Assembly: GCF_014639275.1 (NCBI RefSeq)
Contig: NZ_BMFW01000002.1
Location: 248,487-312,486 of the forward strand
Direction: 5' to 3'
From: Arthrobacter liuii
Lineage (GTDB): Bacteria > Actinomycetota > Actinomycetes > Actinomycetales > Micrococcaceae
Length of the DNA stretch: 64,000 nt
The notes under the pieces were generated by a model. The model was not told where the DNA came from. It worked only from the letters and a program-made list of their open reading frames with translations, and made no database searches. The position numbers and the translations under genes were made by a program. Of this stretch, positions 12,518 through 59,808 are shown piece after piece (position 1 is the first letter of the stretch; every line of letters begins with the position of its first letter).

Positions 12518-12557
12518 CCTGACCTGCATAAACACCCATTCTTGAGTCAACCTTGAG
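12518..12557 (+). promoter_or_regulatory. Direct-repeat element CTTGA-N6-CTTGA (site A)
   Basis: CTTGAG at 12541 and CTTGAG at 12552 are 11 bp apart, about one helical turn, as in OmpR/PhoB-type response-regulator sites. CCTGACCTGC precedes it at 12518. The same 40-nt layout recurs, 30 of 40 positions identical, on the minus strand at 21194-21233 upstream of the TasA-like gene. It lies 46 bp before the BcsB-like reading frame. Confidence 0.6.
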
Positions 12558-12602
12558 GGCGCACCGCAGGATAAATTGAGTTCGCCCCGCCAAGGTGGAG
12601 GC

Positions 12603-13802
12603 ATGCTCTCACGTCTCCGGGCAGGGAGCGTTGTTCTCACCTGCGCCCTGCTTGCCGCCGTCCAATTCCAGCCCGCCACCGCCACGGCCGCGGCCGCCGC
12701 GCCCGCCGCAGTACCTGCGGACAACGCCGCCGCGTCCCACACCAGCCCGGCCACCGCCTCCGCCGGCCTGGGCTCCGTCTCGGCCATGCCCGGCCAGTCA
12801 GGCCAACAGCTCGCCGTTCCGGTCGCCCAGGGCCTGCAGCCCGCGCGCATCACCGGCACCATCCGCGTCAGCGCCCAAGGCCGCACCCTTCTCGAAGCAC
12901 CCGCCAAGGGAACCATCGTCCTGGACGCCCCCCCTCAGCGCGGCAGACCTCACCGACCACCAGTTGGTCCTGGCCCTCGAATATGACCCCGCCGTCCGGG
13001 ACGTCTGCACCGCCACCCAGTCCACCGCCACGCTCAGCAGCATCAGCCTCACCACCCAGGGCGCCGAAACCGCGCCCACCACCGTGGCCGAATTCCTGGC
13101 CCCCTCCGTGCCCGCCATCCTCATCCCCGTCCCGGCCGACCTGGCCCACCGCTACCCGGACGCCGCACTCAAGCTAGTGCCGCCGTCGGACGTGGACGCC
13201 CAGGCCGCCGCCCTCCCCGCCGGCTCCCGCATCATCAGCATCAGCAGCACGCACGGCGCCGCCAGCACCACGCTCGGCACCCAGGCCGGCCGCCCCGCCC
13301 TCACCACCACCGGCACCGGCCAGGGGCTCCGCACCGCGCCACGCGCCCTGGCCGACACCAAATCCACCCTGGCGGACGGCGCCACCGTCACCGGCATGAC
13401 CGCCACCGTCCCCGCCGCCGGGCCCGAACAAACTTCACGGACCGGGGCGCCCAGGCCATCCGGCTGGCCGGCTACGGATCCCAGGAAACCTACCTGGGCG
13501 TCAACCAGTCCCAGCTCGGCGGACCCCTCTCTCCCATCAGCCTCCAGCTTCGCGGCACCCACTCCGCCACCCCACCACGGGCAGGCTGCGCTCTCCGTCC
13601 CTGGAACGATTACCTGCTCGGCTCCCAAACCCATGACGGCGACACCTTGAACATCACCTCAGACGCCCCGGGCGCCGGGGACTGTTCCGGCCCTGCCGAC
13701 CTGCTTCCCGCGGAACACCTGGGACTCCACCGGCAACTCCATCAACCCCGGCTTCGAACGCTTCCCCAGGGGCGGGGCAGCGTACTGCCCCTAGCGTTCT
13801 GA
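12603..13802 (+). pseudogene. BcsB-like secreted protein gene, frameshifted
   Basis: A signal peptide (MLSRLRAGSVVLTCALLAAVQF...) starts at ATG 12603 behind AAGGTGGAGG. The body resembles the cellulose-synthase regulatory subunit BcsB: TDRGAQAIRLAGYGSQETYLGVNQSQLGGP, ISLQLRGTHS, a NDYLLGSQ strand and a terminal PGFERFP. The frame shifts near 12930, returns near 13430, and is disturbed again around 13710-13775, so at least four indels separate it from an intact gene. The family call rests on these motifs only. No BcsA-type synthase is seen in the window. Confidence 0.6.
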
Positions 13803-14178
13803 CCCGGGCGTCGGCACCCGACGTCGCCAGCGGCCTCCTTCAGCCCTGATCCGGGTGTGAGGGGTCCGGGCCAGCCAATGGGGCGGCCGGTCTCCGTCAC
13901 TACGTTGTCACGTCGCTTGACACCGTGTGCACCAGCCTGTCGCGGAGAATCGGCTAAATCGGCTTTGACCTGCGGCTTTAGTCCCGTTTGGAGTGGCTGT
14001 TTCGGCACCTTCAGGCGCACCACCCCTGTCAATATGGGCAGCAATCGTGGATGTTCGGCCCCGCATCTGGGTTGGCACAGTTACCTCCGATTCGTTGACA
14101 CGTTTGTCAAATGCGTTGACGCGTGATTGAGTTCATTGAAATGGGGAACGGAAAGACTACTTACCAATGGAGGCTTCT
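13803..14178. other. Gene-free leader region
   Basis: About 375 bp without a credible gene, upstream of two small membrane proteins and the MinD-like gene. It holds an inverted repeat (14095-14110) and several short stem-forming stretches. I looked for c-di-GMP or c-di-AMP riboswitch cores and did not find one. Confidence 0.5.
14095..14110. promoter_or_regulatory. Perfect inverted repeat TTGACA-N4-TGTCAA
   Basis: TTGACACGTTTGTCAA is a perfect 6-bp-arm palindrome about 70 bp ahead of the GTG start at 14179. Its left arm is also a consensus -35 hexamer, and a second TTGACG follows at 14116, so it may be an operator overlapping the promoter. Confidence 0.45.
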
Positions 14179-14331
14179 GTGACGTTTTCGGACTATGCCC
14201 TCGCACTGACCGCTCTACTGAGTACCCTGCTGGTTCCCTTTGCCATCATGTACCAGCTGCTGAGGCTCAAGCGCCGCGCGCTCCGGATCCCCGTCCCTAC
14301 CGCGCCCGCACCCAGAGGCAATCAACGCTGA
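14179..14331 (+). CDS. Small membrane protein, 50 residues
   Basis: Begins at GTG 14179 behind a good AATGGAGG site. The product starts MTFSDYALALTALLSTLLVPFAIMYQLLRLKRRAL, one hydrophobic helix followed by a basic tail with a Pro-rich end. It ends 2 bp before the next small gene, so the two are probably co-translated. Its position ahead of the MinD-like gene suggests an accessory membrane subunit; function unknown. Confidence 0.55.
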   Translation: MTFSDYALALTALLSTLLVPFAIMYQLLRLKRRALRIPVPTAPAPRGNQR

Positions 14332-14333
14332 CC

Positions 14334-14453
14334 ATGCCGTATGTCGATATTAACCCCCATAAAGGCCGTCCCAAGTGGGTGGGCTACGCCATTCTTGCCG
14401 TCCTCCTGGTGATCACCGCGGCCGTGGTTTCAGCCGCCCTCATCCACCACTGA
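14334..14453 (+). CDS. Small membrane protein, 39 residues
   Basis: ATG 14334 follows the stop of the previous small gene by 2 bp. The peptide begins MPYVDINPHKGRPKWVG and has a single hydrophobic helix (YAILAVLLVITAAVVSAALI) near the C-terminus. Family not recognised. The pairing of two tiny membrane proteins in front of a MinD-like ATPase looks like an operon. Confidence 0.5.
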   Translation: MPYVDINPHKGRPKWVGYAILAVLLVITAAVVSAALIHH

Positions 14454-14551
14454 CCAGACCTGCTGGGCAGCGCCTGGTACCGAACCCCCTAGACTTACTG
14501 ATTGAACCAGTGCCGCACAACCGCTTGCCGAGAACGTCCGGGGGGACAGAC

Positions 14552-15931
14552 ATGCCACATCCGGCGGATCAGAATGCAGGCGACCCAGCAGAGGATGCAG
14601 GGCAGCCGCAACTGCGCCGACGCCGCGACCTTCGTCGTGCCGACGGCTCAGTTCAGGATGCCTGGACAGGAACCATGCCAGCCGTTGCCCCCGATACATC
14701 TAGTTCCAGCGACGCCGGGAAGCCGGTATCACGCCGCTCCTCCTGGGCGGAAGCGGCTGCTGCCGCCGACGCCACCAAGCCCTCCCGCGCGCCTTCCCCC
14801 GCGCAGCCCCCGCATCAGCCTTTCGCTCCTCCTGCCGATCCTTCACCGGCGCCCATCGCTTCCGAACCTGCCGCTGCGCCGGCTCCTGTACCGGGCGGCC
14901 CCTCCGGCGGACATGCCCCGGAAGCCGTCGCACCGCCGCCGGACGGCCCCGCGTTCCGCCGAAGTCGGCCCACCGTGGCCGACGAAATCGACGAAAGCCC
15001 CATGCCGGACTTCATCGGCTCGCCCGGCTTGTTCGTCAAGGAGCAGAAGCCGCGTCCCCGGGGCGGCATCCGCGGCGCCCTCTACAACATGAGCGGCGGC
15101 GCGTGGAACCTGGGCCCCGGGCCGAAGCAGCGTCAGGAGGACGAGCTGGGCCGCCGAATCTCACGCCAGCTCCAGGGCAGCTACAACACGGCCGTCCTGA
15201 GCCTCAAGGGCGGGATCGGCAAAACCTCCACCACGGTGGGCGTAGGCCTGACTTTGGCCGAATACCGTGGCGATGCTCCATGTGCCATCGACGCCAACCC
15301 GGACTCCGGTGACCTGGTGGAGCGTGCCTTGGGTGAAGGCATCTACCAGCAGTCCAGCCCCCGGACCATCACGGACCTGCTGGAAAACATCGAGTCCATC
15401 AACTCCCTGACTTCGCTGGCCCGTTACATGCACCACGCAGGCCGGCTCCACCTGATCGCGGGAGAGCAGGACCCTGAGGTCTCTGACTCGCTGACGGCCG
15501 AAGAGTACCTGAGGATCCGCAGACTGATCTCCAGCTACTACTCGGTGGTGCTGACGGACTGCGGCACCGGCGTGACCCACAACGCGATGAGCGGGATCCT
15601 GCAGTCGGCCGACAACCTGGTGATCGCCGCCGGCTATGCGGTGTCCGGTGCCAAGCGGGCCCGCAGCACACTTCATTGGCTGGCCAGCCACGGCTACGAG
15701 GACCTGGCCCGCAACGCGGTTGTAGTCATCACGGACAAGGACGAGGTGTCCTCTCGTGTGGACAAGGACGCGATCGAGGAGCACCTGGCGGGGATCTGCC
15801 GCGAACTCATCGCCGTGCCGCATGACCGTGGCGTTGCCGACGGCGACCTGGTGACCCTGGACGCGCTAAAGCCCGAGACGCGGCGTGCCTACAAGGAGAT
15901 CGCCGCTGCGATTGTGGACGGGTACCGGTAG
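14552..15931 (+). CDS. MinD/ParA-like ATPase with Pro-rich N-terminus (EspI-like)
   Basis: The 459-residue protein has about 170 residues of low-complexity Pro/Ala-rich sequence and then a deviant Walker A KGGIGKTSTTVGVG, a switch region with AIDANPDSGDL and DCGTG as Walker B, the arrangement of MinD-like ATPases. In actinobacteria the same architecture occurs in ESX-associated EspI; in cellulose loci BcsQ is also MinD-like. ATG 14552 follows GGGGGGA. No ESX core genes are nearby, so a role with the upstream BcsB-like relic and small membrane proteins is possible but unproven. Confidence 0.8.
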   Translation: MPHPADQNAGDPAEDAGQPQLRRRRDLRRADGSVQDAWTGTMPAVAPDTSSSSDAGKPVSRRSSWAEAAAAADATKPSRAPSPAQPPHQPFAPPADPSPAPIASEPAAAPAPVPGGPSGGHAPEAVAPPPDGPAFRRSRPTVADEIDESPMPDFIGSPGLFVKEQKPRPRGGIRGALYNMSGGAWNLGPGPKQRQEDELGRRISRQLQGSYNTAVLSLKGGIGKTSTTVGVGLTLAEYRGDAPCAIDANPDSGDLVERALGEGIYQQSSPRTITDLLENIESINSLTSLARYMHHAGRLHLIAGEQDPEVSDSLTAEEYLRIRRLISSYYSVVLTDCGTGVTHNAMSGILQSADNLVIAAGYAVSGAKRARSTLHWLASHGYEDLARNAVVVITDKDEVSSRVDKDAIEEHLAGICRELIAVPHDRGVADGDLVTLDALKPETRRAYKEIAAAIVDGYR

Positions 15932-16018
15932 GTTTTCCTTCTCCCAGTAGTGACCGGGTTCAAAGACAGGTAGCCGATACCGGGGTAATCCCTGCTGCGG
16001 AACCCTAACCTCGTCACC

Positions 16019-16225
16019 ATGATGGAACTCATGGACGGTGCGCCCCGACCTCGCCGCCTGCCGAAGCGCGAGACGTTGGAGATTATTGGCTTCACAGCCC
16101 TGTCAGTGGCCGCCGCAGCGGTGCTGCTCCCTGCGATCGGGGTCAAGGCCGTGGTGGGTGCCCTGCCGTTCGTCAGGAAGCATGCCGGTCCGATCGAGCC
16201 TGAGGACTCTTACCTCATCAACTAG
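16019..16225 (+). CDS. Small hypothetical membrane protein, 68 residues
   Basis: The product has a basic N-terminal segment (PRPRRLPKRE) and a hydrophobic stretch (IIGFTALSVAAAAVLLPAIGVKAVVGALPF) that could be one long or two short helices. It stands alone about 90 bp after the MinD-like gene. No family recognised. Codon use fits the surrounding chromosome. Confidence 0.45.
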   Translation: MMELMDGAPRPRRLPKRETLEIIGFTALSVAAAAVLLPAIGVKAVVGALPFVRKHAGPIEPEDSYLIN

Positions 16226-16341
16226 CGTTTCACGCTCCGGGGCGTGCCGCCGTCGTACTTCCGGAGATTGCTCGACAAAAGATGCCCACCCCTGACTGAA
16301 TGGGGCGGGCGTCTTTCCTACTGGACAGTGGTTGCGAAGAC

Positions 16342-16989
16342 TTATAGGGGCACGCTCTCAGCCGGCGCAGTCTGGGCATCCCCCGCGAAAATGCTTGCGT
16401 CCAGGCCCGCGACGGCGGACTTGCCGACGAAGCCCATGGCTCCCTTCAACTCCTCCTGGAGGATGCTGATCACTCGATCAACCGCCGGCTCCCCTCCGGT
16501 GGCGAGTGCGTACGCGAAGGGATGCCCGGCCAGCGTCGCCTTGGCGCCCAGCGCCACTGCCTTGACGATGTCGTGCCCACGCCGGATGCCGCCGTCGAGG
16601 TAAATCTCCGCCCGGCCGCCCACAGCCTCGACGATGGACGGCAGGACGTCGATGGTGGCCGGCTGGGAGTCGAACTGCCGGCCGCCGTGGTTGGAAACGA
16701 AAATGCCGTCCGCCCCCTCGTTCACCGCCCGGGCCGCGTCCTCGGCGTCCATGATGCCCTTGATCACCAGGTTCCCCTTCCACTCAGCGCGGAGCTTGGC
16801 GAAGTCCTCCCAGTTGGCGCCCGGGTTCTTGTTGGACGCCATCCAGTTGTTCATCCCGTCCATGCGCAGCGGGCGGCCGTTGATCTGGTAGTTCCCGTAC
16901 GTCATCTTCCGGCCGGTGAGCCACCGCCATAGCCAGCCCGGGCGGGTGGCGGCGTTGAAGTAGTCCGCCACCGGCGGGCACGGCGGCAT
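16342..16989 (-). pseudogene. lldD: FMN-dependent L-lactate dehydrogenase, N-terminally truncated
   Basis: The 215-residue frame matches only the C-terminal half of alpha-hydroxy-acid dehydrogenases: the FMN/substrate motif SNHGGRQFDSQPATIDVLP with the catalytic His and Arg, LDGGIRRGHDIVKAVALGA and LAGHPFAYALATGGE. About 180-190 N-terminal residues of the TIM barrel are missing. Upstream DNA turns within 40 bp into the end of the anti-sigma gene, so a deletion seems to have fused the two regions. A half barrel lacking the first FMN-binding strands should not be functional. Confidence 0.85.
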
Positions 16990-17028
16990 GGACAGCCCGT
17001 GCGTTGCTGGTGCCGCCTGCCCGGACCC

Positions 17029-17844
17029 TCAGGTTTTGGAGTTGAGCCTTCCCCTGGCGACGCTGTCGTCGGAGTGTGCAGGATTCCCGTTGTACGCCTG
17101 ATCGGAGATGTCCACGATGGGATATTGGGCCAGGTCGATCCCGGCGGGGATGGTAAAGGTGCCGGTCCCGTCGGCCAGGACACCCAGGCTGACCATTCCG
17201 GTGAGGTCGCTGGTGCCGACCCATACCTGCTGGTAGCCCGTGGTCTTATCGGCGCTGAGACGGATGGTGAGTTGGCGGGTTCCGTCGGGCAGCTGCCTCA
17301 CCTGTGCCTCTCCGCTGCCTGTGTGTGCGGGCAATGGGGTCAGCGGTGTTTGGGCGAGGACGATGGAGGTGGGGCCGGGGACAGGGGTGCCCGGTTGCCC
17401 CGTGATGCCGGCCGCGGTCCAGCCGGCGGCCGTGCCCAGGAGGATGCCGGCGGCGGCCGCCAGCCAGAGTCCGGGACGGGGACGGCGCCGGTCTCTGGTT
17501 GCAGGCCGCAGGAAAGGGGGTGCGGCGTCCGGTTCGTTGCCGGGCTGCGGGGGCGTTTCCACCGCAGCCAGCCTGATGCCTGGGCTCTCCGGCCGGGTCA
17601 GTGGATCCGGTGCAAGGGCAGGCGACAGCCCGAGGGCCTGATGGATCGCCGCCCAGGTCTGGGGGCCGGGCTGCTCAAGTTTGATGCCGGCGGGCTCGAG
17701 GGTGGCGATGTCCCGGACCAGTTGGAGGCCCCGCAGGGTTTCGGCGCATTCCTGGCAGTTGGCGAGGTGGTCTGCGTCGGCGTCCGTGCCTGCTGTCTCA
17801 CCGAGCGCCATCAGGCTCAGGAGTTCCGCGTCAAGGTGTTCCAT
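17029..17844 (-). CDS. RskA-type anti-sigma factor
   Basis: The 271-residue membrane protein has an N-terminal zinc-binding anti-sigma domain with HLANCQEC (His26, Cys30, Cys33), one TM helix (LWLAAAAGILLGTAAGWTAAG, about residues 130-150) and an extracytoplasmic RskA domain ending near residue 255. It would bind and hold the adjacent ECF sigma factor until proteolysis. Its start overlaps the end of the sigma gene by 14 bp, which supports co-translation. The C-terminus is close to the truncated lldD, but the domain looks complete. Confidence 0.88.
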   Translation of the reverse strand: MEHLDAELLSLMALGETAGTDADADHLANCQECAETLRGLQLVRDIATLEPAGIKLEQPGPQTWAAIHQALGLSPALAPDPLTRPESPGIRLAAVETPPQPGNEPDAAPPFLRPATRDRRRPRPGLWLAAAAGILLGTAAGWTAAGITGQPGTPVPGPTSIVLAQTPLTPLPAHTGSGEAQVRQLPDGTRQLTIRLSADKTTGYQQVWVGTSDLTGMVSLGVLADGTGTFTIPAGIDLAQYPIVDISDQAYNGNPAHSDDSVARGRLNSKT

Positions 17845-18403
17845 GTTCCACCTCCAGGCGGGTGCGCAAGCGGATGAGGCTGCGCCGGATATGGCTTTTG
17901 ACCGTTCCGAGCGGCAGGTTCAGGCGTGACGAGATCTGATCGTGGGTCAGGTCATCGTAGAACGCCAGCCTCAGTATTGACTGTTGCGGGTCTCCTAAAT
18001 GTTCCAGTTCATCGTCAAGGATCAGGCGGTCGGCCACTGCCTCCACACTTCCTTCTTCCGGTTCCACGGACGGCTCCGGGAGCAGATGGAGAGCGGCTTG
18101 TTCCAGGTGGCGTTGGCGGGCGCGTTCGGACAGTGCGTCGTTGATGGCATTTCGGGTGATCCCCACCAGCCAGGCGGGCAGCCGTGCAGCTTCCGGCCGG
18201 TAGGTGGTGCGTGACTTCCAGGCGCGGATGAAGACTTCCTGGGTGACGTCATCCGCGGCGCTTCGGTCTCCCAGGGATCTGAGCGCCAGGGTGTACACCA
18301 GCGGGCCCAGCCTCCGGTACGCTTCGGCGAGGGCGCCCTCGTCCCCGCCCGCAAACGCCTGGTCGAAGCCGGGGTCCCAGTCGTGGTTGGCGGCAGCCTC
18401 CAT
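17831..18403 (-). CDS. ECF sigma factor
   Basis: The 190-residue sigma-70 family protein has region 2 (SAADDVTQEVFIRAWKS) and region 4 (LTHDQISSRLNLPLGTVKSHIRRSLIRLR) and no region 1.1 or 3, as in ECF factors of the SigK/RskA-regulated type. I start at ATG 18403, preceded by AAGGAG; an in-frame ATG at 18424 has no such site. Partner anti-sigma follows with overlap. The DUF4397 gene immediately upstream in the same direction is a plausible target. Confidence 0.88.
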   Translation of the reverse strand: MEAAANHDWDPGFDQAFAGGDEGALAEAYRRLGPLVYTLALRSLGDRSAADDVTQEVFIRAWKSRTTYRPEAARLPAWLVGITRNAINDALSERARQRHLEQAALHLLPEPSVEPEEGSVEAVADRLILDDELEHLGDPQQSILRLAFYDDLTHDQISSRLNLPLGTVKSHIRRSLIRLRTRLEVEHGTP

Positions 18404-18591
18404 CGGGTGCTCCTTGAGCGGCAACAGGCCTGATTGAGGCCTATTATGCCGCTGCCCGATGTGGTCCGCTAGGGTCGGCTGGTGCCAAGGGACGCGGGAG
18501 TTCCCGGTGATTGTCCCCGGCGAGGCTGGGCTCTGAACGGCTTCGCCGGGGACAAATCGATGGGACTGGATTTCTTCAGGGCTTCCGGGGA

Positions 18592-19308
18592 TTAGTCATC
18601 ATCGCAGTCGTGCCCGCGTGCGGCGGAGTCCACCACCTGCACGGCAAGCCCGAGGGTCTTGTCAGCCAGGCTGCCCCAGGCGTAGACGATGGTGTTCTTT
18701 CCCTCGGCGACGTTAACGTCGGCGGGCCCGATGAGCGGGGCGGTGGTTCCCGCCGCTGCCACCGAGGCGGAGATGCTTCCCTGCTTGAGGGTGAGGGTCT
18801 TCTCGTCGGGGTTGGTGAGGTCCTTGACGACGGCGGTCCCGCCGGCCAGGATGTCGACGGCCGGGGCGGCTGCGACGTGCCGGACGGTCAGCTTTCCCTT
18901 TCCGTCAGGACTGGGTGTTGTGTCGTTGGTGAACAGTGTGGCCGTGGGGGTTCCGTCAGCGGCCAGGTGCGCGACGGCCGTGTAGTCCCCGCCGGCTTCA
19001 AGGTCCACGGTAACGGGGCCGATCACCGGGTTGTCGGCGCTGGTGGCGTCCGCGCCGGTGATGGCAATTTTATGGTCTCCGTCCGGAACGGTCAGAGGGC
19101 CGGCCAGGGTGCCCGGCTTGAAATTGTCCAGGGTGAGCTTTCCATCCACCCAGACGTCCACGGTCAGGCCAGGGACGCCGTGGAGGACGGAGAGTTTTGC
19201 CGTCTCGTCGTGGCTGTGATGCCAGGTTGATGCCTGGGCCGGGGCGGCCAGGGCCAATGCTGCCAGCAGCGTGGTTGCTCCGGCGGCTGCAGTGAGTGTC
19301 TTGCGCAT
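18592..19308 (-). CDS. Secreted DUF4397-domain protein
   Basis: The 238-residue product has a signal peptide (MRKTLTAAAGATTLLAALALAAPAQAS) and two DUF4397-type repeats: KLSVLHGVPGLTVDVWVDGKLTLDNFKPG and, about 120 residues later, KLTVRHVAAAPAVDILAGGTAVVKDLTNP. It is presumably exported to the cell surface; function of the family is unknown. ATG 19308 is chosen because AAGGAG sits 6 nt upstream. It lies directly before the ECF sigma/anti-sigma pair in the same direction, a common actinobacterial arrangement. Confidence 0.85.
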   Translation of the reverse strand: MRKTLTAAAGATTLLAALALAAPAQASTWHHSHDETAKLSVLHGVPGLTVDVWVDGKLTLDNFKPGTLAGPLTVPDGDHKIAITGADATSADNPVIGPVTVDLEAGGDYTAVAHLAADGTPTATLFTNDTTPSPDGKGKLTVRHVAAAPAVDILAGGTAVVKDLTNPDEKTLTLKQGSISASVAAAGTTAPLIGPADVNVAEGKNTIVYAWGSLADKTLGLAVQVVDSAARGHDCDDD

Positions 19309-19434
19309 TTCCAACTCCTTTTTCGGGCCCCCTTGGGGCCGCCGTTGTGCTTACACCCCTACTACCGGCCGAATGCCCTGCCCGGATGCAGCCTGGCGCA
19401 AAATTTTTTGAACCGGCCCCAACGCGGGATACCC

Positions 19435-19782
19435 CTACATCGTGGAAAAGGGCCGCGCAGCCTGGTTCAGGCGTGCCACGATGTCTCCCAACTGCCGGGT
19501 CTGCACCTGTGCGACGGCGAAGTCCTCGTTCTTAATGGAAGCCTGCAAAGCCAGGCAGCTGGCTTCGATTTCAGAAGCACCGGTCATGGCCGCCGTGATT
19601 TTGAGGCTGAGGACGGCGTCCATGGCATCCTCGCGGTCCTGCGCGGCGACAGCAGTTTGGATGCGGGTGAACCGCGGCGGCAGCATGGCGAGGAAGTCTG
19701 TAAGAAACCGCAGTGCGAGCTGAGGACTGTTCAGCTCCCGGCCAAGGTCCTGGATGATCTGGGGGTCGACGCCGTCGATCAT
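19435..19782 (-). CDS. Hpt-like protein lacking the phospho-accepting histidine
   Basis: The 115-residue all-helical protein aligns by pattern with histidine phosphotransfer domains (FLTDFLAMLPPRFTRIQTAVAAQD ... ASEIEASCLALQ ... QLGDIVARLNQA). At the active helix, where Hpt proteins have AHxLKG, it reads VLSLKITAAMTGA: the His is Leu and the Gly after Lys is Ile. It therefore probably cannot carry phosphate and may act as a binding scaffold. Its ATG overlaps the stop of the SipW-like signal peptidase gene (ATGA), so the two are translationally coupled. No receiver partner is adjacent. Confidence 0.7.
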   Translation of the reverse strand: MIDGVDPQIIQDLGRELNSPQLALRFLTDFLAMLPPRFTRIQTAVAAQDREDAMDAVLSLKITAAMTGASEIEASCLALQASIKNEDFAVAQVQTRQLGDIVARLNQAARPFSTM

Positions 19783-20420
19783 GCCTTTTGTGTACCTGCT
19801 TCCGCCTGCTCAGGCTTCTTGGCCCATGGGTCCTTGCCCCAGATGTTCCTCAGCACCCCGATGACCAGGATGGCAGGAGCCCCATACATGAGTGTGTTCA
19901 GGATGACTGGCTCGCGGATGGCCCGGATGGCGTTCCCCACGTAGGGGATGGTGAAGGCATGCCGGTCCACCGTGGGGGCGTTGAGGGTGGCCAGCCACGG
20001 GTCGATGCCGTTGTTCGCGTCACCCTTGGTCTGCACGACGATGGACCCATCCGGGCTGGTGCTCACCTGGGTGACCCGGTGGGTTTCGACCCGCTGGTCC
20101 TCGACCGGGATGTGGTACGTGATTATGTCGCCGACCTTGATCTCGCTGGCCGGAACCGGCTTGGTGACCACGACGTCGCCCGGATTGATCAGCGGGGACA
20201 TGGACCCCGTAAGCATGGTTAGCGTGTGGTAGCCGAAAATGCGTGGCCCGATGGCCAGGGCCAGGAATGCGGCCAGAGCCAGGGTGAACAAGGTGGTCGT
20301 GATGACGGTCAGGGACCGTCTGAGGAGGTGGACCAGCCGCCCGGAGCCGGACGCTGTACTGCTTTCCTGGACCTCGACGGCCGGACCATGGGGCTTACGG
20401 GCGATGGGCGGTGCAGTCAT
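19779..20420 (-). CDS. sipW: SipW-like type I signal peptidase
   Basis: The 213-residue S26B-type peptidase has a TM helix near residues 38-58, catalytic Ser73 in TGSMSP, a His114 in ETHRVT where bacterial SPases have Lys, the GDVVVTK and GDIITYH boxes, and a C-terminal TM near residues 180-200. The Ser/His arrangement is that of the ER/archaeal-type enzymes such as Bacillus SipW, which process TasA-like matrix proteins. It sits between a TasA/camelysin-like gene and an Hpt-like gene, as expected for a dedicated maturation enzyme. Confidence 0.88.
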   Translation of the reverse strand: MTAPPIARKPHGPAVEVQESSTASGSGRLVHLLRRSLTVITTTLFTLALAAFLALAIGPRIFGYHTLTMLTGSMSPLINPGDVVVTKPVPASEIKVGDIITYHIPVEDQRVETHRVTQVSTSPDGSIVVQTKGDANNGIDPWLATLNAPTVDRHAFTIPYVGNAIRAIREPVILNTLMYGAPAILVIGVLRNIWGKDPWAKKPEQAEAGTQKA

Positions 20421-20465
20421 GGCACGCGTTCAGGTCTGAGGGAGTAGTTCCAGGCGGCCGGCTCT

Positions 20466-21071
20466 TTACCTGACCGTCGCAGCCCGCTGGGTGGCGTCGA
20501 AGGTGAAGCTGATGGTGCTGGCGGCGCCCTGGAAAGCATCCGGAGCCGCGGACGGCAAGGTGGTGGTGACCTTAAGGTTGTCGTTCTTACCGTTGGTGAG
20601 TGCGGTCAGGTTGGTCAGCGCACGGTTGGCCCCAATGATCGGGGAGGAGCCAAGGACCGTGGTCTTGCTGCCGGAGCAGGTGTAGGGCGCGGCGGCTCCG
20701 GTCCAGCCTGTGCTGCAGTTCTCAATGAGCAGCTTCAGGCCGTTGGTTCCGTCGGTGGACAGTGCGGAAACAGGAGTTGCGGTGTCTGCCGTGGTGAGGG
20801 TGACGGTGCCAAGGTCGGAGTTGCCGGTGTTGGTCAGGGTAACGAGCTTTTCGACGGTGTCGCCGGGGAGCAGACCCGCGACGGGAAGGCTGAGGGTGTC
20901 AGCTGTGGTCTGGCCGAGGGTGATCTTTACGGTGCCGGCGGTGACGGACTGGCTGGCCGAAGTGGTGGCGGTGAACCCACCGTAGGTGCCCATGCCGGCC
21001 ACCGCGGCAGCGGTGCCAACCAGTGCGATGGAGGCGAGGATCTTGCCGGAAGTGGTCTTCATGATGCCCAT
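20466..21071 (-). CDS. TasA/camelysin-like secreted protein, SipW substrate
   Basis: The 201-residue product has a signal segment (ILASIALVGTAAAVAGMGTYGGFTATTSASQSVTAGTVKI) with the GTYG.F...ASQS...AGT motif of SipW-processed TasA/CalY proteins, followed by a beta-rich domain with LLPGDTVEKLVTLTNTGNSDL. Such proteins form fibres or surface layers in biofilm matrices. ATG 21071 begins MGIMKTT. It is followed 45 bp later by the SipW-like gene. A CTTGA direct-repeat element lies about 120-160 bp upstream. Confidence 0.82.
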   Translation of the reverse strand: MGIMKTTSGKILASIALVGTAAAVAGMGTYGGFTATTSASQSVTAGTVKITLGQTTADTLSLPVAGLLPGDTVEKLVTLTNTGNSDLGTVTLTTADTATPVSALSTDGTNGLKLLIENCSTGWTGAAAPYTCSGSKTTVLGSSPIIGANRALTNLTALTNGKNDNLKVTTTLPSAAPDAFQGAASTISFTFDATQRAATVR

Positions 21072-21193
21072 TTGCTTAGGTCCATTTCTGTGAAGGCCCA
21101 CCACATGGGCCGGCCGCGGAAGGTCAGGCACACTGCTTGGCCTGACCTCGCATCACCATTCAGGGCGAGCCTCAAGACGTGTCCCCGCATAGG

Positions 21194-21233
21194 CTCAAGA
21201 TTTAGTCAAGAATGAAGATCTGCGCAGGTCAGG
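21194..21233 (-). promoter_or_regulatory. Direct-repeat element CTTGA-N6-CTTGA (site B)
   Basis: Read on the minus strand it starts CCTGACCTGC, then CATTCTTGA and CTTGAG with the two CTTGA boxes 11 bp apart, the same order and spacing as at 12518-12557. A third CTTGAG box lies 23 bp further towards the TasA-like gene (21172). The position fits an activator site of the tasA-sipW-hpt operon. Confidence 0.6.
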
Positions 21234-21294
21234 GCCGTATTGTGATGCGCATCACCGTGAGTTTGCGCGGGGATTGATACGAACCAGACGGGGT

Positions 21295-21310
21295 CTTGAG
21301 ACTTTCTTGA
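21295..21310 (+). promoter_or_regulatory. Direct-repeat element CTTGA-N6-CTTGA (site C)
   Basis: CTTGAGACTTTCTTGA, boxes 11 bp apart, lies 65 bp ahead of the GTG start at 21375 and in the same orientation as that gene. With site B it gives the divergent intergenic region two copies of the element, one facing each way. Confidence 0.55.
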
Positions 21311-21374: not shown

Positions 21375-21818
21375 GTGGGGGCCGGCAGGAACCATGCAGG
21401 GGGAGCCAGCGCGCTGCTGGTGCTTCTGTTGTCTTCGCTTTTCGTCGGCGTCCCGGCGGCACACGCAGCGTTTACGGCATCGGGCCAGTCCGGTTTCCGG
21501 GTTAGCGCCCTCGTCCTGCAGCCCCCGGTCGCATCAATCACCGCAAGCTGCGCCGGCGGCGGCAGCGGTAAGGGCAAAAACCGGCTGAATATCGCTGTGT
21601 CGAGTGTTGGCTCGGTACCCCGGGCCAACGCCTATGTACTTATCGTGACCGACCCCTCTGGCACGAGTTACACCGTCGACCCCGCCAGTTCCGGGTACTC
21701 CAACCAGTCACCCGCGCTTGGCACCTGGAAGTACTACGTTCAGGCCCAGTACCGGGTTCCTGGCACCACGAACGTCTGGAAGAGCAACACCGCCAATCCC
21801 TTGACTGTTGTTTGCTGA
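21375..21818 (+). CDS. Secreted beta-rich protein divergent from tasA-sipW
   Basis: The 147-residue protein begins at GTG behind GAAAGGA. A signal peptide (LLVLLLSSLFVGVPAAHAAF) is followed by FTASGQSGFRVSALVLQPPVASITASCAGG and a fibronectin-like or Ig-like strand pattern ending in LTVVC; two Cys residues could form a disulfide. Family not named with certainty, but the start AAFTASGQ resembles SipW-type mature ends. Shared regulation with the divergent matrix operon is suggested by the direct repeats between them. Confidence 0.65.
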   Translation: MGAGRNHAGGASALLVLLLSSLFVGVPAAHAAFTASGQSGFRVSALVLQPPVASITASCAGGGSGKGKNRLNIAVSSVGSVPRANAYVLIVTDPSGTSYTVDPASSGYSNQSPALGTWKYYVQAQYRVPGTTNVWKSNTANPLTVVC

Positions 21819-30587: not shown

Positions 30588-30643
30588 GGGGCCGGCGGCT
30601 TTTTTCGGATCGACGCTGATCCGTGGCCCCCGCCGCCGGCCCC
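30588..30643. terminator. Nested GC-rich hairpin with T-tract
   Basis: GGGGCCGGCGGC (30588-30599) pairs perfectly with GCCGCCGGCCCC (30632-30643). The loop contains TTTTTT and an inner CGGATC/GATCCG stem. It probably ends transcripts of the gene at 29518. Confidence 0.55.
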
Positions 30644-30669
30644 TGGTCTGTGGGGAATGTGGAATAGGT

Positions 30670-30701
30670 GCCTGGCGGCGCCATTGCTGGTGCCGCCAGG
30701 C
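30670..30701. terminator. Second hairpin, 10-bp arms
   Basis: GCCTGGCGGC (30670-30679) pairs with GCCGCCAGGC (30692-30701). It could be the terminator of the minus-strand gene at 30881, though it lies about 180 bp downstream of that stop. Confidence 0.45.
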
Positions 30702-30833
30702 GTCTGAGACCATCGGTTTTATCCGACGTGGGCGCGGTTAACTGGGTCCCAGTACCCAGGTGCATTAAGGCTGCGTTCCCGTCCCTTGTGCATCACTTTG
30801 CAGATAGGACCTCAAGAACGGGCCCGGATTCGA

Positions 30834-30849
30834 TCAAGAATGCATCAAG
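30834..30849 (-). promoter_or_regulatory. Direct-repeat element CTTGA-N6-CTTGA (site D)
   Basis: On the minus strand CTTGATGCATTCTTGA has boxes 11 bp apart, as at sites A-C. A third CTTGA copy (TCAAG on the plus strand) is at 30812. It does not precede a known coding gene: on the minus strand it points into the hairpin region. Confidence 0.4.
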
Positions 30850-55542: not shown

Positions 55543-57639
55543 CTAGAAATTGGTTTTCGTCTTCCCGCTGGTGGTAACTCCTGCGGGAAGGGCGTTTCCG
55601 GCCATGTCAGCAGGTCCAGCCGCCGTGCGATACGAGGGAATTCCTTGAGTGACAGGCGTGCTCAAATTTCCCGAGTTCGATCTGTAGGTACCCAGCTTAA
55701 TAGTGAGGATCTTGCCCGTAGCATCCAGCGTCAGGATCGAGGGAGTGCCCCCGTTGCCGTTGCCATTGGCAGCGAAGACTGCAGGGGTGGTTCCCACATA
55801 GTTCGCACCCAGGTAGAGATTTCCGGCGGGTACCACACAGGTGCCGGCAGTAAAACTGATGGTGTCGTTGTTGCCCCCGTCCGCGATCGTAGCAGTTCCG
55901 CTTAGCTCTGCCCCTGACCACCCCGCGCAAAACTTGGCTGGATCCATGGCTTCGGAGAACTCGATGGTGACAAAGTCGCCCTTGTCGAGGGAGTTGGAAG
56001 TCGAGCCAACGCCATTTTGCCCAGTCACATCGACGACGCTGGGAAGCGTGGTGTCCTTGGTGGTGGTGCCACCCGCAGTGACCGTTCCGGTGTTACCCGC
56101 GGCGTCGGCAGCGGACGCCGTATAGGTCAGGGCGCCGTCGCGCAGGCTTGAGATATCCATGGTTGTTGACCACGACGTCCCGGTGGGGTTTACCTGAGTC
56201 GTTACCGTGTTGAGGGCGGAATCACGGACGGTCACGCTCACTACAGTCCCGGCCTCAGTGGTGCCAGTGACTTTGCTGCTGCCGCTGGCGTACATCGGTG
56301 CCGTGATGCTCAGGATCGGCGCCGTAGTGTCCTTCGTGTCTGAGGCAGTAGCGGCTGAGCTGGTGTTGCCCGCCGCATCTGTAACAGTGGCCGTGTAGGT
56401 GACCGTGCCATCTTTGAGGGACCTGAGGTCCAGGTTCAGTGACCAGGAGCCGCCGTTGGCAGCGGCCGTGCCTGTGACAGCGGTGGCGGACCCCGGGCTC
56501 ATGGCGGAAACCGCCACAGTAGCCCCGGCTTCAGCGTTCCCGGAGATACGGATGGAAGCCGCGGTGGCGCTGTTCACGTAGGTCGGCACGCTCCAGGCAG
56601 ACGCCGCGGCCGGAGCCACAGTGTCCTTGGTGCTCGTCGCCGTCTTTGCGGCGCCCACGTTGCTGGCGGCGTCCGTGGCAGTGGCAGAGAACGTCACGGT
56701 CCCCTCGTTCAGACTGCTGAGGTTGAAGGTAGCGGACCAGGCACCGGTTCCGGAGGCGCTAGCGGTCGCCGGGACAGAATGCCCGGCACTGTCGCTGGCC
56801 ACCAGGCTAACCGTCGTCCCGGCTTCGGCGGTGCCGCTGATCGCTACCCCGGAAACGGTGGCCAGGGTTACATAGGTCGGAACGGTTGTGAAGGCGGGAG
56901 CAGCCGGCGCTTGGGTATCAATCCGCACCGTCTGGCTCTGGGGCGACCCGGCGTTGCCCACCTTGTCCGTCGCGAAGTAGGACACTGTGTGCGTTCCGTC
57001 GCCGCTGACCGGGACGGTGGCGACGGCCGCGTTCACCGTCTGCTGCCCGCCGCCGTCGACCGTGTAGGAAATGGAGGCGACGCCGGAACCGGACGTGCCG
57101 TCGTCGGCCGTGATGGTCACCGTAACCGGGCTGGTGTTGTTCCAGCCCGCGGTGTTGGGGGCGGGCGAGATACCCGAAACGGTGGCTACGGGGGCACTCG
57201 CATCATTGCTGGTGCCGCTGCTGCGCGGGCTTTCCGTGCCGGTCCAGAGAGCGATGGCCGGGGTGACGGTGTAGTACCAGATGCCGCCGGGCACAGCCTG
57301 TTCCGTGCAGGCGAGCGTGGTGACCGTCCCGGCGCAGCCGCCGGTGGCCGCAGTGCCAGTGCCGCCCGTGGCCGCGGAATAGCGGGTGACCGTGTAGCCG
57401 GTCGCGGAGCGACCGTTCACAGTGGTTCCGCCGGCCCAACTGACGGTCATCCCGGAATTGGCGGCCGTGACCGCAGGCCTGGAACCGGGCGAGAGCGTGT
57501 CAGCGGCGGCGGCCGCATTGCTGCTGCTGGTGGTGGCGGCCCAGAACGCGTACGCGGCGGTGCCGGTGCCGAGCAGGAGCAACAGGGCGGTGACAATCCA
57601 CGGCAGCCGTCGGGATGGGCGCAGGAACATGAGGCTCAT
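55543..57639 (-). CDS. Secreted multi-Ig-repeat protein
   Basis: The 698-residue surface protein starts at ATG 57639 (GGAGG upstream, overlapping the previous stop). The signal segment ends in GTAAYAFWAATTSSSNAAAAADTLSPG, similar to SipW substrates. It then has a fibronectin-like module, a sandwich with DDGTSGSGVASISYTVDGG, and four bacterial Ig-like repeats of about 85-95 residues (ISGTAEAGTTVSL, ISGNAEAGATVAV, VTGTTEAGTVVSV...). The C-terminal domain SLDKGDFVTIEFSEAMDPAKFC is a Big_5-like module. Last gene of a four-gene operon. It likely forms part of an adhesin or matrix. Confidence 0.85.
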   Translation of the reverse strand: MSLMFLRPSRRLPWIVTALLLLLGTGTAAYAFWAATTSSSNAAAAADTLSPGSRPAVTAANSGMTVSWAGGTTVNGRSATGYTVTRYSAATGGTGTAATGGCAGTVTTLACTEQAVPGGIWYYTVTPAIALWTGTESPRSSGTSNDASAPVATVSGISPAPNTAGWNNTSPVTVTITADDGTSGSGVASISYTVDGGGQQTVNAAVATVPVSGDGTHTVSYFATDKVGNAGSPQSQTVRIDTQAPAAPAFTTVPTYVTLATVSGVAISGTAEAGTTVSLVASDSAGHSVPATASASGTGAWSATFNLSSLNEGTVTFSATATDAASNVGAAKTATSTKDTVAPAAASAWSVPTYVNSATAASIRISGNAEAGATVAVSAMSPGSATAVTGTAAANGGSWSLNLDLRSLKDGTVTYTATVTDAAGNTSSAATASDTKDTTAPILSITAPMYASGSSKVTGTTEAGTVVSVTVRDSALNTVTTQVNPTGTSWSTTMDISSLRDGALTYTASAADAAGNTGTVTAGGTTTKDTTLPSVVDVTGQNGVGSTSNSLDKGDFVTIEFSEAMDPAKFCAGWSGAELSGTATIADGGNNDTISFTAGTCVVPAGNLYLGANYVGTTPAVFAANGNGNGGTPSILTLDATGKILTIKLGTYRSNSGNLSTPVTQGIPSYRTAAGPADMAGNALPAGVTTSGKTKTNF

Positions 57640-58139
57640 TTCCGGACCTCCGCCGTCACGGGAAGGCTGAAGGTTGCGCCCTGGCAGGCTGCGAGCGAGG
57701 TGGTATCCATGGCGGCCGCTCCCGGGAGGGTAATGAGTGCTGACGAGTTGGCGGAAACGTAGGTTGCGGGGGACAGCGGGGCTGAGGTTCCCCGGAAGCT
57801 GACACCTGTGGTGGTGCAGCCTGGATGTGCGGCGTCGGCCGTGGCGGAGCCGTTGGCGGTGACGCTGTACACCTGCACCGGGTAGGGGTTGGGGTTGGTC
57901 AGGCGGAGTACGACGTCGGCGCTGCCGCCGGGAATGAGGACTGTCTTCAGGTTGTCGCTGGCAACCAGGGCGTCGATGGTGACGGTTTGCATGGTGCCGG
58001 CGGCTGCGGACCCGGTGCCGCTGCCTGATCCCGTCCAGTAGGCGTACGCGGTTCCGGCGCCGGCGCTGGCCAGGAGCCCTGCCAGTGCCGCAGCCTTGAT
58101 GCCGCGGCCGCGCCGGGAGGTCCTTGCGGTGGTGGTCAT
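57636..58139 (-). CDS. Secreted SipW-substrate-like protein
   Basis: The 167-residue product has a hydrophobic segment ending AGTAYAYWTGSGSGTGSAAAGTMQTVTIDALVAS, similar to the signal region of the 150-residue protein at 59356, and a beta-rich domain VLRLTNPNPYPVQVYSVTANGSATADAAHPGC. It starts at ATG 58139, 1 bp after the stop of the upstream gene, and its stop overlaps the next start. It may be a fibre subunit or minor matrix protein. Confidence 0.78.
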   Translation of the reverse strand: MTTTARTSRRGRGIKAAALAGLLASAGAGTAYAYWTGSGSGTGSAAAGTMQTVTIDALVASDNLKTVLIPGGSADVVLRLTNPNPYPVQVYSVTANGSATADAAHPGCTTTGVSFRGTSAPLSPATYVSANSSALITLPGAAAMDTTSLAACQGATFSLPVTAEVRK

Positions 58140-58140
58140 C

Positions 58141-59304
58141 TCAGTTCCCCTGTCCTGATCCTGAATACGTGAGCTGGAGGGCTGCGCCTTTGCAGCCGTC
58201 CTGGTTGGCGGAGCTGTCCAGCATGCCCACCCGCGGCCAGGCCTGCTGTGCCACACCGAGCCCGGAGAGTGAGCTGGTCCCGGTGGGAACGGCGAGGGGG
58301 TAGGAGCCCCGGTACTGGGTGACCGCGAAATCCGCAGACGAGCAGGGCAGATTCCTGGCCACGGCGTCCGCGCTCCTGGTAACCCCCGCGATGGCTGCGG
58401 ACAGGTTGGTCAGGGAGAGTGGCTTACCGGTGGGGTTGCTGATCTGCAGATCCAGGCCGGCAGAGGTGCCGGGGGACAGGGTGCCGGGGACGTTGCCGGA
58501 GAGGGCGAACTGCTTGATGGTGGGATCCAGGACCAGTTGGACGTTCGCGTAGGCGTACTGTGCCGTCCCGGACGGGTCCTTTCCTGTTGCCATCAGGTAC
58601 AGGCTGGATGTTCCTTTGGGGGATCCGTCGGTGGTGGCTACCTGGAGGGTGGTGGAGTTGCCGGTGGTGGCGCTGGGCGAGAATGACGCTGTGGCACCGG
58701 CCGGCAGTCCGCCCATGACGCTGAAGTTGACGGGGCCACTGAGGTTGTTGCGGCTCAGCTGCAGCGTGTAGACGGCGGTGGCGCCCGGCGGGATGGTCAC
58801 GGAGTCCGGGGTGGCGCTTACCGAAAAGGAGGTGGAGATCTTGTAGTTCACGGTGAGGCCGGCGGTGGTGCTGCCGGAGACCTTGCCGCTGGTGCCCGTG
58901 ATGGTCAGTGAACTGGTCCCCGCCGGTGTGCCCACGCTGGTGCTGGCGTTTAGGGTGGCGGTTGCAGTGGACCCGGGGTTGAGGATGACGGACGACGGCG
59001 TGAAGGTACCGCTTGCTCCTCCCGGCAGTCCCGCGGTGGCCAGGTTGACGGCCCCGCTGAAGCCGCCGGTGGAGGTAACAGCCACCGTGTAGGAGGCTGA
59101 CTGGCCCTGCTGGACGGACTGGCTGGCAGGGGAAACCTGCACCGCTATGCCCGGTTTCGGATTGTTCGCCGCCGCGATCAGCGACCCCGCGCCCAGCAGC
59201 ATCAGCAACAGTGCCGCAACCGCTGCCTTGATGCCGGTCCACGTACGACGCCGCGGATGTCCGTCTTGGTTGTGCACCTTGTGCCCCCTTGTTCTTTGGT
59301 GCAA
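58141..59304 (-). CDS. Secreted Ig-like-domain protein
   Basis: The 387-residue product has one TM/signal segment (IKAAVAALLLMLLGAGSLIAAA) and three Ig-like modules, the first with SVQQGQSASYTVAVTSTGGFSGAVNLATAGLPGGASGTFTPSSVILNPGSTATATL, the second with SVTIPPGATAVYTLQLSRNNLSGPVNFSVMGGLPAGATASFSP. The C-terminal domain has two Cys (RNLPCSSADFAV and NQDGCKGAAL), reminiscent of the other proteins of the operon. Surface or matrix protein. Start is either at 59304 or at an internal codon. Confidence 0.8.
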   Translation of the reverse strand: MHQRTRGHKVHNQDGHPRRRTWTGIKAAVAALLLMLLGAGSLIAAANNPKPGIAVQVSPASQSVQQGQSASYTVAVTSTGGFSGAVNLATAGLPGGASGTFTPSSVILNPGSTATATLNASTSVGTPAGTSSLTITGTSGKVSGSTTAGLTVNYKISTSFSVSATPDSVTIPPGATAVYTLQLSRNNLSGPVNFSVMGGLPAGATASFSPSATTGNSTTLQVATTDGSPKGTSSLYLMATGKDPSGTAQYAYANVQLVLDPTIKQFALSGNVPGTLSPGTSAGLDLQISNPTGKPLSLTNLSAAIAGVTRSADAVARNLPCSSADFAVTQYRGSYPLAVPTGTSSLSGLGVAQQAWPRVGMLDSSANQDGCKGAALQLTYSGSGQGN

Positions 59305-59355
59305 ATGACGGCAAACCGGGGACGGACTCGCACCGCCCCCGGCCCGCTCGTTTGG

Positions 59356-59808
59356 CTAGTTGCTGGCTACGGTCACCGTGATGGTGGCGTTCTTGCAGGC
59401 GTTCTGGTCGACGGCGGTGTCATCGTTGAGAGTCAGCGTGCCGTTGCCCAGGTCAGTCTTGACAGCATTTCCAGCAACGGTGGCGGTGCCGGTGGGAGCG
59501 GTGGCGACAAACCAGCCGGGCAGGCAGTTTGCGTTGCTGGTGGTAACCACGGGCTTTGCCAGCGTCACTGGCGTGCTGCTGGTGTTAGGGTTTGTGGCCG
59601 TGTAGTTGATGTTCACGGGGCTGCCCGGAGCGACACCCGGGGCCACGGTGACATTGATGGTGATAGGGGACGTCGTGCCAGCTGCCGCACCTCCGCTACC
59701 CGAACCCGTCGTGCTCCAGTAGGCGTAAGCCGCGCCGCCGCCGACTGCGACCAGAGCGGCGGAAGCGGCGACAGCGGCGATCTTGTTTTTCTTGGTCATT
59801 TTGCGCAT
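59356..59808 (-). CDS. Secreted SipW-substrate-like protein
   Basis: First gene of the operon, ATG 59808 behind TTAGGAG. The 150-residue product has MTKKNKIAAVAASAALVAVGGGAAYAYWSTTGSGSGGAAAGTTSPITINVTV and a beta-rich end with two Cys (NANCLPGW and DQNACKNATI). The AYAYW...GSGSG..AAGT motif also occurs in the 167-residue protein two genes on, and resembles the TasA-like protein at 20466. It may be an exported fibre component. Confidence 0.78.
   Translation of the reverse strand: MRKMTKKNKIAAVAASAALVAVGGGAAYAYWSTTGSGSGGAAAGTTSPITINVTVAPGVAPGSPVNINYTATNPNTSSTPVTLAKPVVTTSNANCLPGWFVATAPTGTATVAGNAVKTDLGNGTLTLNDDTAVDQNACKNATITVTVASN

Follow-up and report, generated by a model that had tools for sequence, protein, structure and literature searches.

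The stretch of DNA analysed here (the window) comprises 64,000 nucleotides of the Arthrobacter liuii contig NZ_BMFW01000002.1 and carries a direct repeat, CTTGA-N6-CTTGA, ahead of a tasA-like operon and at three further places. The locus raises the question of whether this repeat belongs to a real promoter and, if so, which protein reads it. The plain pattern has four exact matches in the window against 0.05 expected, and none of 100 shuffles reaches four. Three of the sites had been listed in a preliminary description and all are present: A at 12541/12552 (+), B at 21210-21206 and 21199-21195 (-) and C at 21295/21306 (+). The likeness reported there between A and B was also found, with 30 of 40 positions identical when counted from CCTGACCTGC on, and each has a CCTGA that begins 23 bp ahead of its first CTTGA. 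That description had overlooked a fourth exact match, site D at 30849-30834 (-), as well as a -10-like hexamer at a fixed distance and a third box, which follows the second after 22-23 bp.

The composite promoter

We compared the frequency of the repeat with that of the reversed pattern, which served as the control. In this genome (G000; 4.82 Mb in 99 contigs) the plain pattern matches 10 times against 5, a modest enrichment, and with one mismatch allowed there is no excess (126 against 167); the bare 5-mers therefore carry limited information. The spacers of all 10 exact matches end in [AT][CT], and 8 of the 10 fit WWY. The refined form with such a spacer end, CTTGANNNWWYCTTGA, occurs 8 times in this genome against 0 and 168 times against 11 in 61 genomes of the genus, 48 of which have at least one. 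In a sample of the order, taken as a whole, 67 of 297 genomes have a match.

The surroundings of a little more than half of the genus matches were fetched. Together with sites from other fetched loci they gave 131 sites, 110 of them distinct, whose flanking sequences sort them into 59 families. Of these, four that are coding (13, 36, 48 and 50) and two of the kdp kind (6 and 26) were dropped, and the -10 region played no part in the selection of the 53 that were counted. A further box is found at +33 in 15 families and at +34 in nine, where about 0.2 would be expected per position; under a stricter NTTGA rule, 23 of the 53 non-coding families have a third box. In 21 of these 23 there is an A...T exactly 11 nt after the third box, whereas any other offset tried gives three at most. 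The CTTGA repeat is thus often the upstream part of a composite of the design CTTGA-N6-CTTGA-N17/18-NTTGA-N11-NANNNT. Two marks of promoters of the PhoB/OmpR type are present in it: tandem units with an 11-bp period and, in those 21 families, a proximal unit that replaces the -35 element at a fixed distance from the -10.

With up to two box mismatches allowed, the window holds exactly three composite promoters, and the reversed control none. At site A, boxes 1 and 2 (12541..12556, +) are followed by a third box ATTGA (12575..12579, +) and the -10-like hexamer CAAGGT (12591..12596, +), with an ATG 6 nt later at 12603, the start of a BcsB-like relic. At site B, the promoter of the tasA operon, boxes 1 and 2 (21195..21210, -) are followed by CTTGA (21172..21176, -) and AATGGT (21155..21160, -), and at site D the corresponding elements are at 30834..30849, 30812..30816 (CTTGA) and 30795..30800 (CAAAGT), all on the minus strand. 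The CCTGA before box 1 at A (12518..12522, +) and B (21229..21233, -) may be a further box. Site C (21295..21310, +) has two boxes only. Downstream of it is a gene for a small predicted secreted protein (21375..21818, +) that has no Pfam match, and the hexamer at +11 after its second box is without statistical support; a short promoter form of this kind, found in 4 of 30 families against 1-3 at several other offsets, was unconvincing.

Conservation before orthologous genes, on which the preliminary description had staked its proposal, was borne out. The composite element lies upstream of tasA homologues in 27 of 30 loci with at most four mismatches in 16 specified positions, whereas two of 30 reversed controls reach four and none has fewer; at the loci outside the 27 (L050-L052) the tasA hit itself is distant or partial. 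Nine named genomes that were collected separately all have the promoter with at most two mismatches, and the controls have 6-7. These nine loci, the named relatives of the tasA-like protein, are from Arthrobacter, Pseudarthrobacter and one Nocardioides contig. In genomes with several tasA copies, the flanks diverge, as judged by eye, near the outer edge of the element. Three copies each are found in G022, G033, G038 and G032, with the promoter at every listed copy read and with unrelated upstream sequence. The Nocardioides sp. URHA0032 contig (L287) carries, outside the usual genera, a locus of tasA, sipW, pseudo-HPt, regulator and secreted protein genes with the promoter at two mismatches, which is either a transfer or a misassigned contig. 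Taken together, the data strongly support a real promoter design common to related soil bacteria: its architecture, its conservation before orthologous genes and its excess in the genus are all shown by the counts.

Two 5-mers that meet by chance, or a conserved coding sequence, would account for the plain count of 10 against 5 and for a recurrent match inside a ROK-family gene, and yet for the composite form the chance explanation is contradicted by the 168 refined matches against 11, by the fixed third box and hexamer and by the tasA loci, which were held out. We regard it as scarcely credible. The ROK-family matches (L001, L073 and L155), in which the exact repeat lies within the gene in several genomes, are apparently a coding coincidence.

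The fixed spacing to a -10-like hexamer, together with an ECF-type (extracytoplasmic function) sigma factor gene beside the tasA operon, might also suggest that the boxes are elements of an alternative sigma factor promoter and not activator sites. Sigma factors do not, however, contact up to three or more equal boxes spaced at 11 and 22-23 bp, and we know of no sigma promoter with such box spacing. The hexamer itself, with A at position 2 and T at position 6 in 22 of the 23 families each, fits an ordinary -10 core; its position 5 is G in 17. We therefore consider a sigma factor promoter very improbable.

Genes and RNA behind the promoter

The operon behind site B consists of a tasA-like gene (20466..21071, -; Pfam Peptidase_M73/camelysin), a sipW-like signal peptidase gene (19779..20420, -; Peptidase_S26) and a third gene with an HPt fold (19435..19782, -). 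The tasA-like product belongs to the TasA/camelysin family (PF12389, 40.8 bits against a cut-off of 22.5), and the sipW-like protein scores slightly under the cut-off for PF10502 (21.5 against 22.9 bits). Just after the operon, at 17029-19308 (-), there are genes for an ECF-type sigma factor, a possible anti-sigma factor and a DUF4397 secreted protein.

Site A lies ahead of a decayed BcsB-like gene (12603..13715, +). This relic aligns, over 12774-13715, in three pieces in different frames with the intact BcsB-domain protein of L090, for which PF03170 scores 28.1 bits against a cut-off of 21; the relic piece 12964-13650 has no Pfam match. Site A is the surviving promoter of the decayed gene, an example of a promoter outliving its gene. 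An intact BcsB-like gene is found behind the same promoter type in L090, L097, L139 and L142, followed by an MshEN-glycosyltransferase gene and, behind a second site, by GGDEF and GGDEF-EAL genes. The MshEN-glycosyltransferase has no match in this genome, in a search that had no positive control. Other sites precede GT2 (glycosyltransferase family 2) genes and, once, a Flp pilin gene. These data support the earlier proposal that a direct-repeat promoter, such as regulators of the OmpR/PhoB type recognise, ties a BcsB-like polysaccharide gene to the tasA operon.

Downstream of site D, 10 genomes share a conserved sequence of about 200 nt, beyond which conservation ends, and we propose that it encodes an undescribed structured non-coding RNA candidate (30588..30789, -). 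The 5' end was set from the hexamer and the 3' end from the last helix; the latter is a guess because there is no U-run after that helix. The consensus fold has 55 pairs, with 98.5% of cells paired against 28.7-43.8% when the alignment is slid by 1-3 columns. Eight pairs show changes on both sides, a number that none of 500 shuffles reaches. A search of Rfam gave four weak matches, all far under the gathering score and on the opposite strand, and no family was reached. By DNA search the RNA has hits in 15 of the 61 genomes, 13 of them long copies, and all 13 carry the composite promoter with at most one mismatch. Ten of these had been reached through the motif; the others are in G037 (a listed motif match), G034 and G025 (the copy being no motif match). 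The two short hits are of 62 nt in G020, where the best composite has three mismatches, and of 34 nt in G052, where it has six.

There is a second conserved composite promoter of this kind at G000:C2:355842-355885 (-) and in L150, with a G+C-rich hairpin directly behind it and, after that, a gene on the opposite strand. Relatives are found in L110, L156, L222, L230, L231, L238, L242, L244 and L248, and the hairpin is possibly a second short RNA.

Besides a structured RNA, the targets thus include tasA-sipW, BcsB and glycosyltransferase genes as well as those for GGDEF and pseudo-HPt proteins, and the regulon would therefore mainly build matrix.

The candidate regulator and the pseudo-HPt proteins

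OmpR-type regulator genes adjoin sites in five genomes (L099, L108, L120, L122 and L148). In a tree of 48 rows with a midpoint root, four of the five fall into one branch, here called core, and L108 falls into its sister branch, so the idea that all of them form a single subfamily was rejected. The sister branch also holds the regulators of the tasA loci L286, L287 and L288, in which the regulator gene separates the tasA operon from a gene for a small secreted protein. An orthologue of the core regulator is present in 45 of the 61 genomes (E ≤1.1e-108); in this genome it is at C10:74003-74758, and contigs C4 and C63 carry relatives. In L200, L204, L207 and L219 it is adjoined by genes for a PAS/HisKA kinase and a pseudo-HPt protein. 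There is a CTTGA site near the pseudo-HPt gene of this module in L204, in L219 and, with one mismatch and about 1.6 kb away, in L200. A second kinase, regulator and pseudo-HPt module adjoins a tad-pilus-like gene cluster in several genomes (L201, L211-L214 and L218).

A composite promoter occurs no farther than 1.5 kb from the core regulator in 13 of 30 loci, against none of 30 with the reversed control. Exact composite hits, defined as CTTGA-N17/18-CTTGA-N12-ANNNT, are found in 36 of the 45 genomes with the core regulator and in one of the 16 without it (Fisher 2.4e-7, shared descent being ignored). These results suggest that an OmpR-type protein is likely to read the boxes. Adjacency and co-occurrence point, with less certainty, to the core-module regulator or a member of the sister branch as the best candidate.

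We therefore favour, with a probability of about 0.6, an activator-dependent matrix promoter that is read by an OmpR/PhoB-type regulator, probably that of the core module or of the sister branch. The CTTGA boxes 11 bp apart would be the upstream part of this promoter, and the third box, in many cases 22-23 bp further on, would take the place of the -35 element; 11 bp behind that box comes a weak -10, in most cases NANNGT. A dimer of the response regulator may bind boxes 1 and 2, and a second dimer may bind around box 3 and touch RNA polymerase, in the manner of PhoB at PHO boxes. The reader would be either the OmpR-type regulator encoded beside the PAS/HisKA kinase and the pseudo-HPt protein or its sister at the tasA loci. 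More speculatively, the pseudo-HPt protein could bind the receiver domain and limit the response.

Several observations weigh against this reading. Thirty of the 53 families have no third box, and the scan yielded no site in the L207 module. The exact composite pattern taken alone matches 87 times in the 61 genomes against 27 reversed controls and is therefore less specific than the three-box form; perhaps about a third of its hits are chance. The association between regulator and composite across genomes may partly follow descent, which the comparison leaves out. G032 has five sites and three composite hits and lacks the core regulator; its kinase is missing too, which speaks against a local gap in the assembly, although a larger gap may be the cause. 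Additionally, CTTGACG-type repeats precede kdpD-like or kdpA-like genes in L070, L076, L077 and L085, in genomes without the core regulator. These are perhaps KdpE sites of a similar kind, and other OmpR-type proteins may therefore read such boxes.

The placement of the sites gives a divided answer. The preliminary description had taken random placement with respect to gene starts as grounds for dropping its proposal, and 91 of the 168 genus matches, the window included, were classified in this regard. About nine with the ROK-gene spacer were omitted on sight, of which those inspected were L001/L155 and L073. The sites are non-random in lying outside genes (87 of 91, a count made after most suspected coding matches had been excluded, against 29.5% of random positions), and not in facing them: a called gene on the same strand begins within 400 bp of only 29 of the 87 non-coding sites, and the share among random non-coding positions is 26.5%. 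Of the other sites among the 91, 20 face such a gene farther away, 34 face a gene on the opposite strand, four are coding and four are undecided. One of the random background sets came from regions around sites and so includes real sites. Sorting sites by the next called gene is weak, partly because the simple gene caller misses small genes such as the pseudo-HPt gene behind the C35 site.

The same promoter could instead be read by another transcription factor, whether of the OmpR type or of another family, with the kinase-regulator module as a target and not the source of control. G032 and the kdp-type sites fit such a reading, and the window itself encodes at 36114 an OmpR-type regulator with its own kinase, which had been put forward earlier as the reader. 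The 36114 protein is disfavoured: it is 39% identical to the core regulator of this genome, has at most 44% identity to any site-adjacent regulator and forms the longest branch of the tree, outside both the core and the sister branch. This rejection is tentative, since the position of so long a branch is unsure. Against another reader in general, one regulator branch and its sister adjoin sites in several different contexts, and both the proximity of composites to the core regulator and their distribution over genomes favour the module. We consider another reader rather unlikely.

The pseudo-HPt genes were compared by fold and by alignment. The product of the third gene of the tasA operon matches Pfam Hpt above the cut-off, and its model has a pLDDT (predicted local distance difference test) of 90.7, in keeping with a four-helix HPt fold. 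In the comparison of predicted folds the top 22 rows are all HPt proteins, and the closest chains reach a Z of 15.4 at best, with a root-mean-square deviation of 2.2 over 113 residues; a Foldseek search gives an E of only 2.2e-3 at best. The solved HPt chains compared have a histidine at the phosphorylatable position, whereas here it is Leu, Ile or similar in all 24 aligned rows (22 distinct) and in all seven from tasA loci. The family has five matching genes in this genome: those beside the regulators on C10, C4 and C63, that of the tasA operon and that on C35, which sits behind a composite promoter. Within the family to which the genus belongs, there is a match in 52 of 120 genomes and 16 of 32 genera. 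In G384, G403 and G441, from one other genus, the match lies within open frames of about 620 residues, where the pseudo-HPt is perhaps fused to other domains.

A wider reading would join these parts into a matrix regulon that spans the genus, has a promoter class of its own and is run by a kinase and an OmpR-type regulator. From the same promoter would come catalytically dead HPt proteins, which would bind and limit the regulator much as AHP6 might do in plants, and the new RNA as a further regulatory arm. We put this forward only tentatively.

Relation to known systems

The PHO box of PhoB/PhoP is built of direct repeat units of 11 nt, of which there are often more than two and which the regulator reads head to tail (excerpts of PMC4415409 and PMC7866108), with the sequences GTTCACC in Streptomyces and CTGTCAT in E. 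coli (excerpts of PMC4415409). As far as these excerpts go, the CTTGA promoter shares with it the 11-nt period and, putatively, an OmpR/PhoB-type reader, and differs in its box and in a fixed 22-23 bp gap before the third box. The box conserved in the present promoter is CTTGA and not that of the Pho regulon, and the genes served are matrix and pseudo-HPt genes and an RNA rather than phosphate genes. The distance to the -10 in PHO-box activation resembles the -10 placement of the CTTGA promoter. Repeat period and -10 placement thus appear PHO-like, but box and genes differ. MtrA and related actinobacterial regulators bind repeats of the GTAAC-N6-GTAAC type, with units of about 5 bp and about 6 bp between them. 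These are similar in unit and gap length to the CTTGA repeat and different in box sequence, and we know of no third box in them.

The Bacillus tapA-sipW-tasA operon, which is under SinR/SlrR control, likewise combines a TasA-like protein and a SipW-like peptidase. Its promoter differs, and in the operon described here the third gene encodes a pseudo-HPt. In plants the pseudo-HPt AHP6 has an HPt fold without the phosphorylatable histidine and interferes negatively with its pathway (excerpt of PMC5975490). By analogy with such plant proteins alone, as that excerpt describes them, one may speculate that the bacterial ones antagonise the response; the present proteins differ in being bacterial and in being encoded by stand-alone small genes beside OmpR-type regulators.

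A search of one open-access library, by titles and abstract openings, found no literature on matrix-gene control in this group of soil bacteria. The fixed, searchable promoter architecture gives a testable list of promoters, a candidate regulator, a histidine-less HPt-fold family and an RNA with covarying stems.

Finally, there are further TasA/SipW-substrate-like secreted proteins in the window at 55543-59808 (-), at which the scan found no composite promoter. In L064, L112, L116, L118, L121, L152 and L158, a conserved two- or three-box site lies where genes converge, and the repeat points to no gene.

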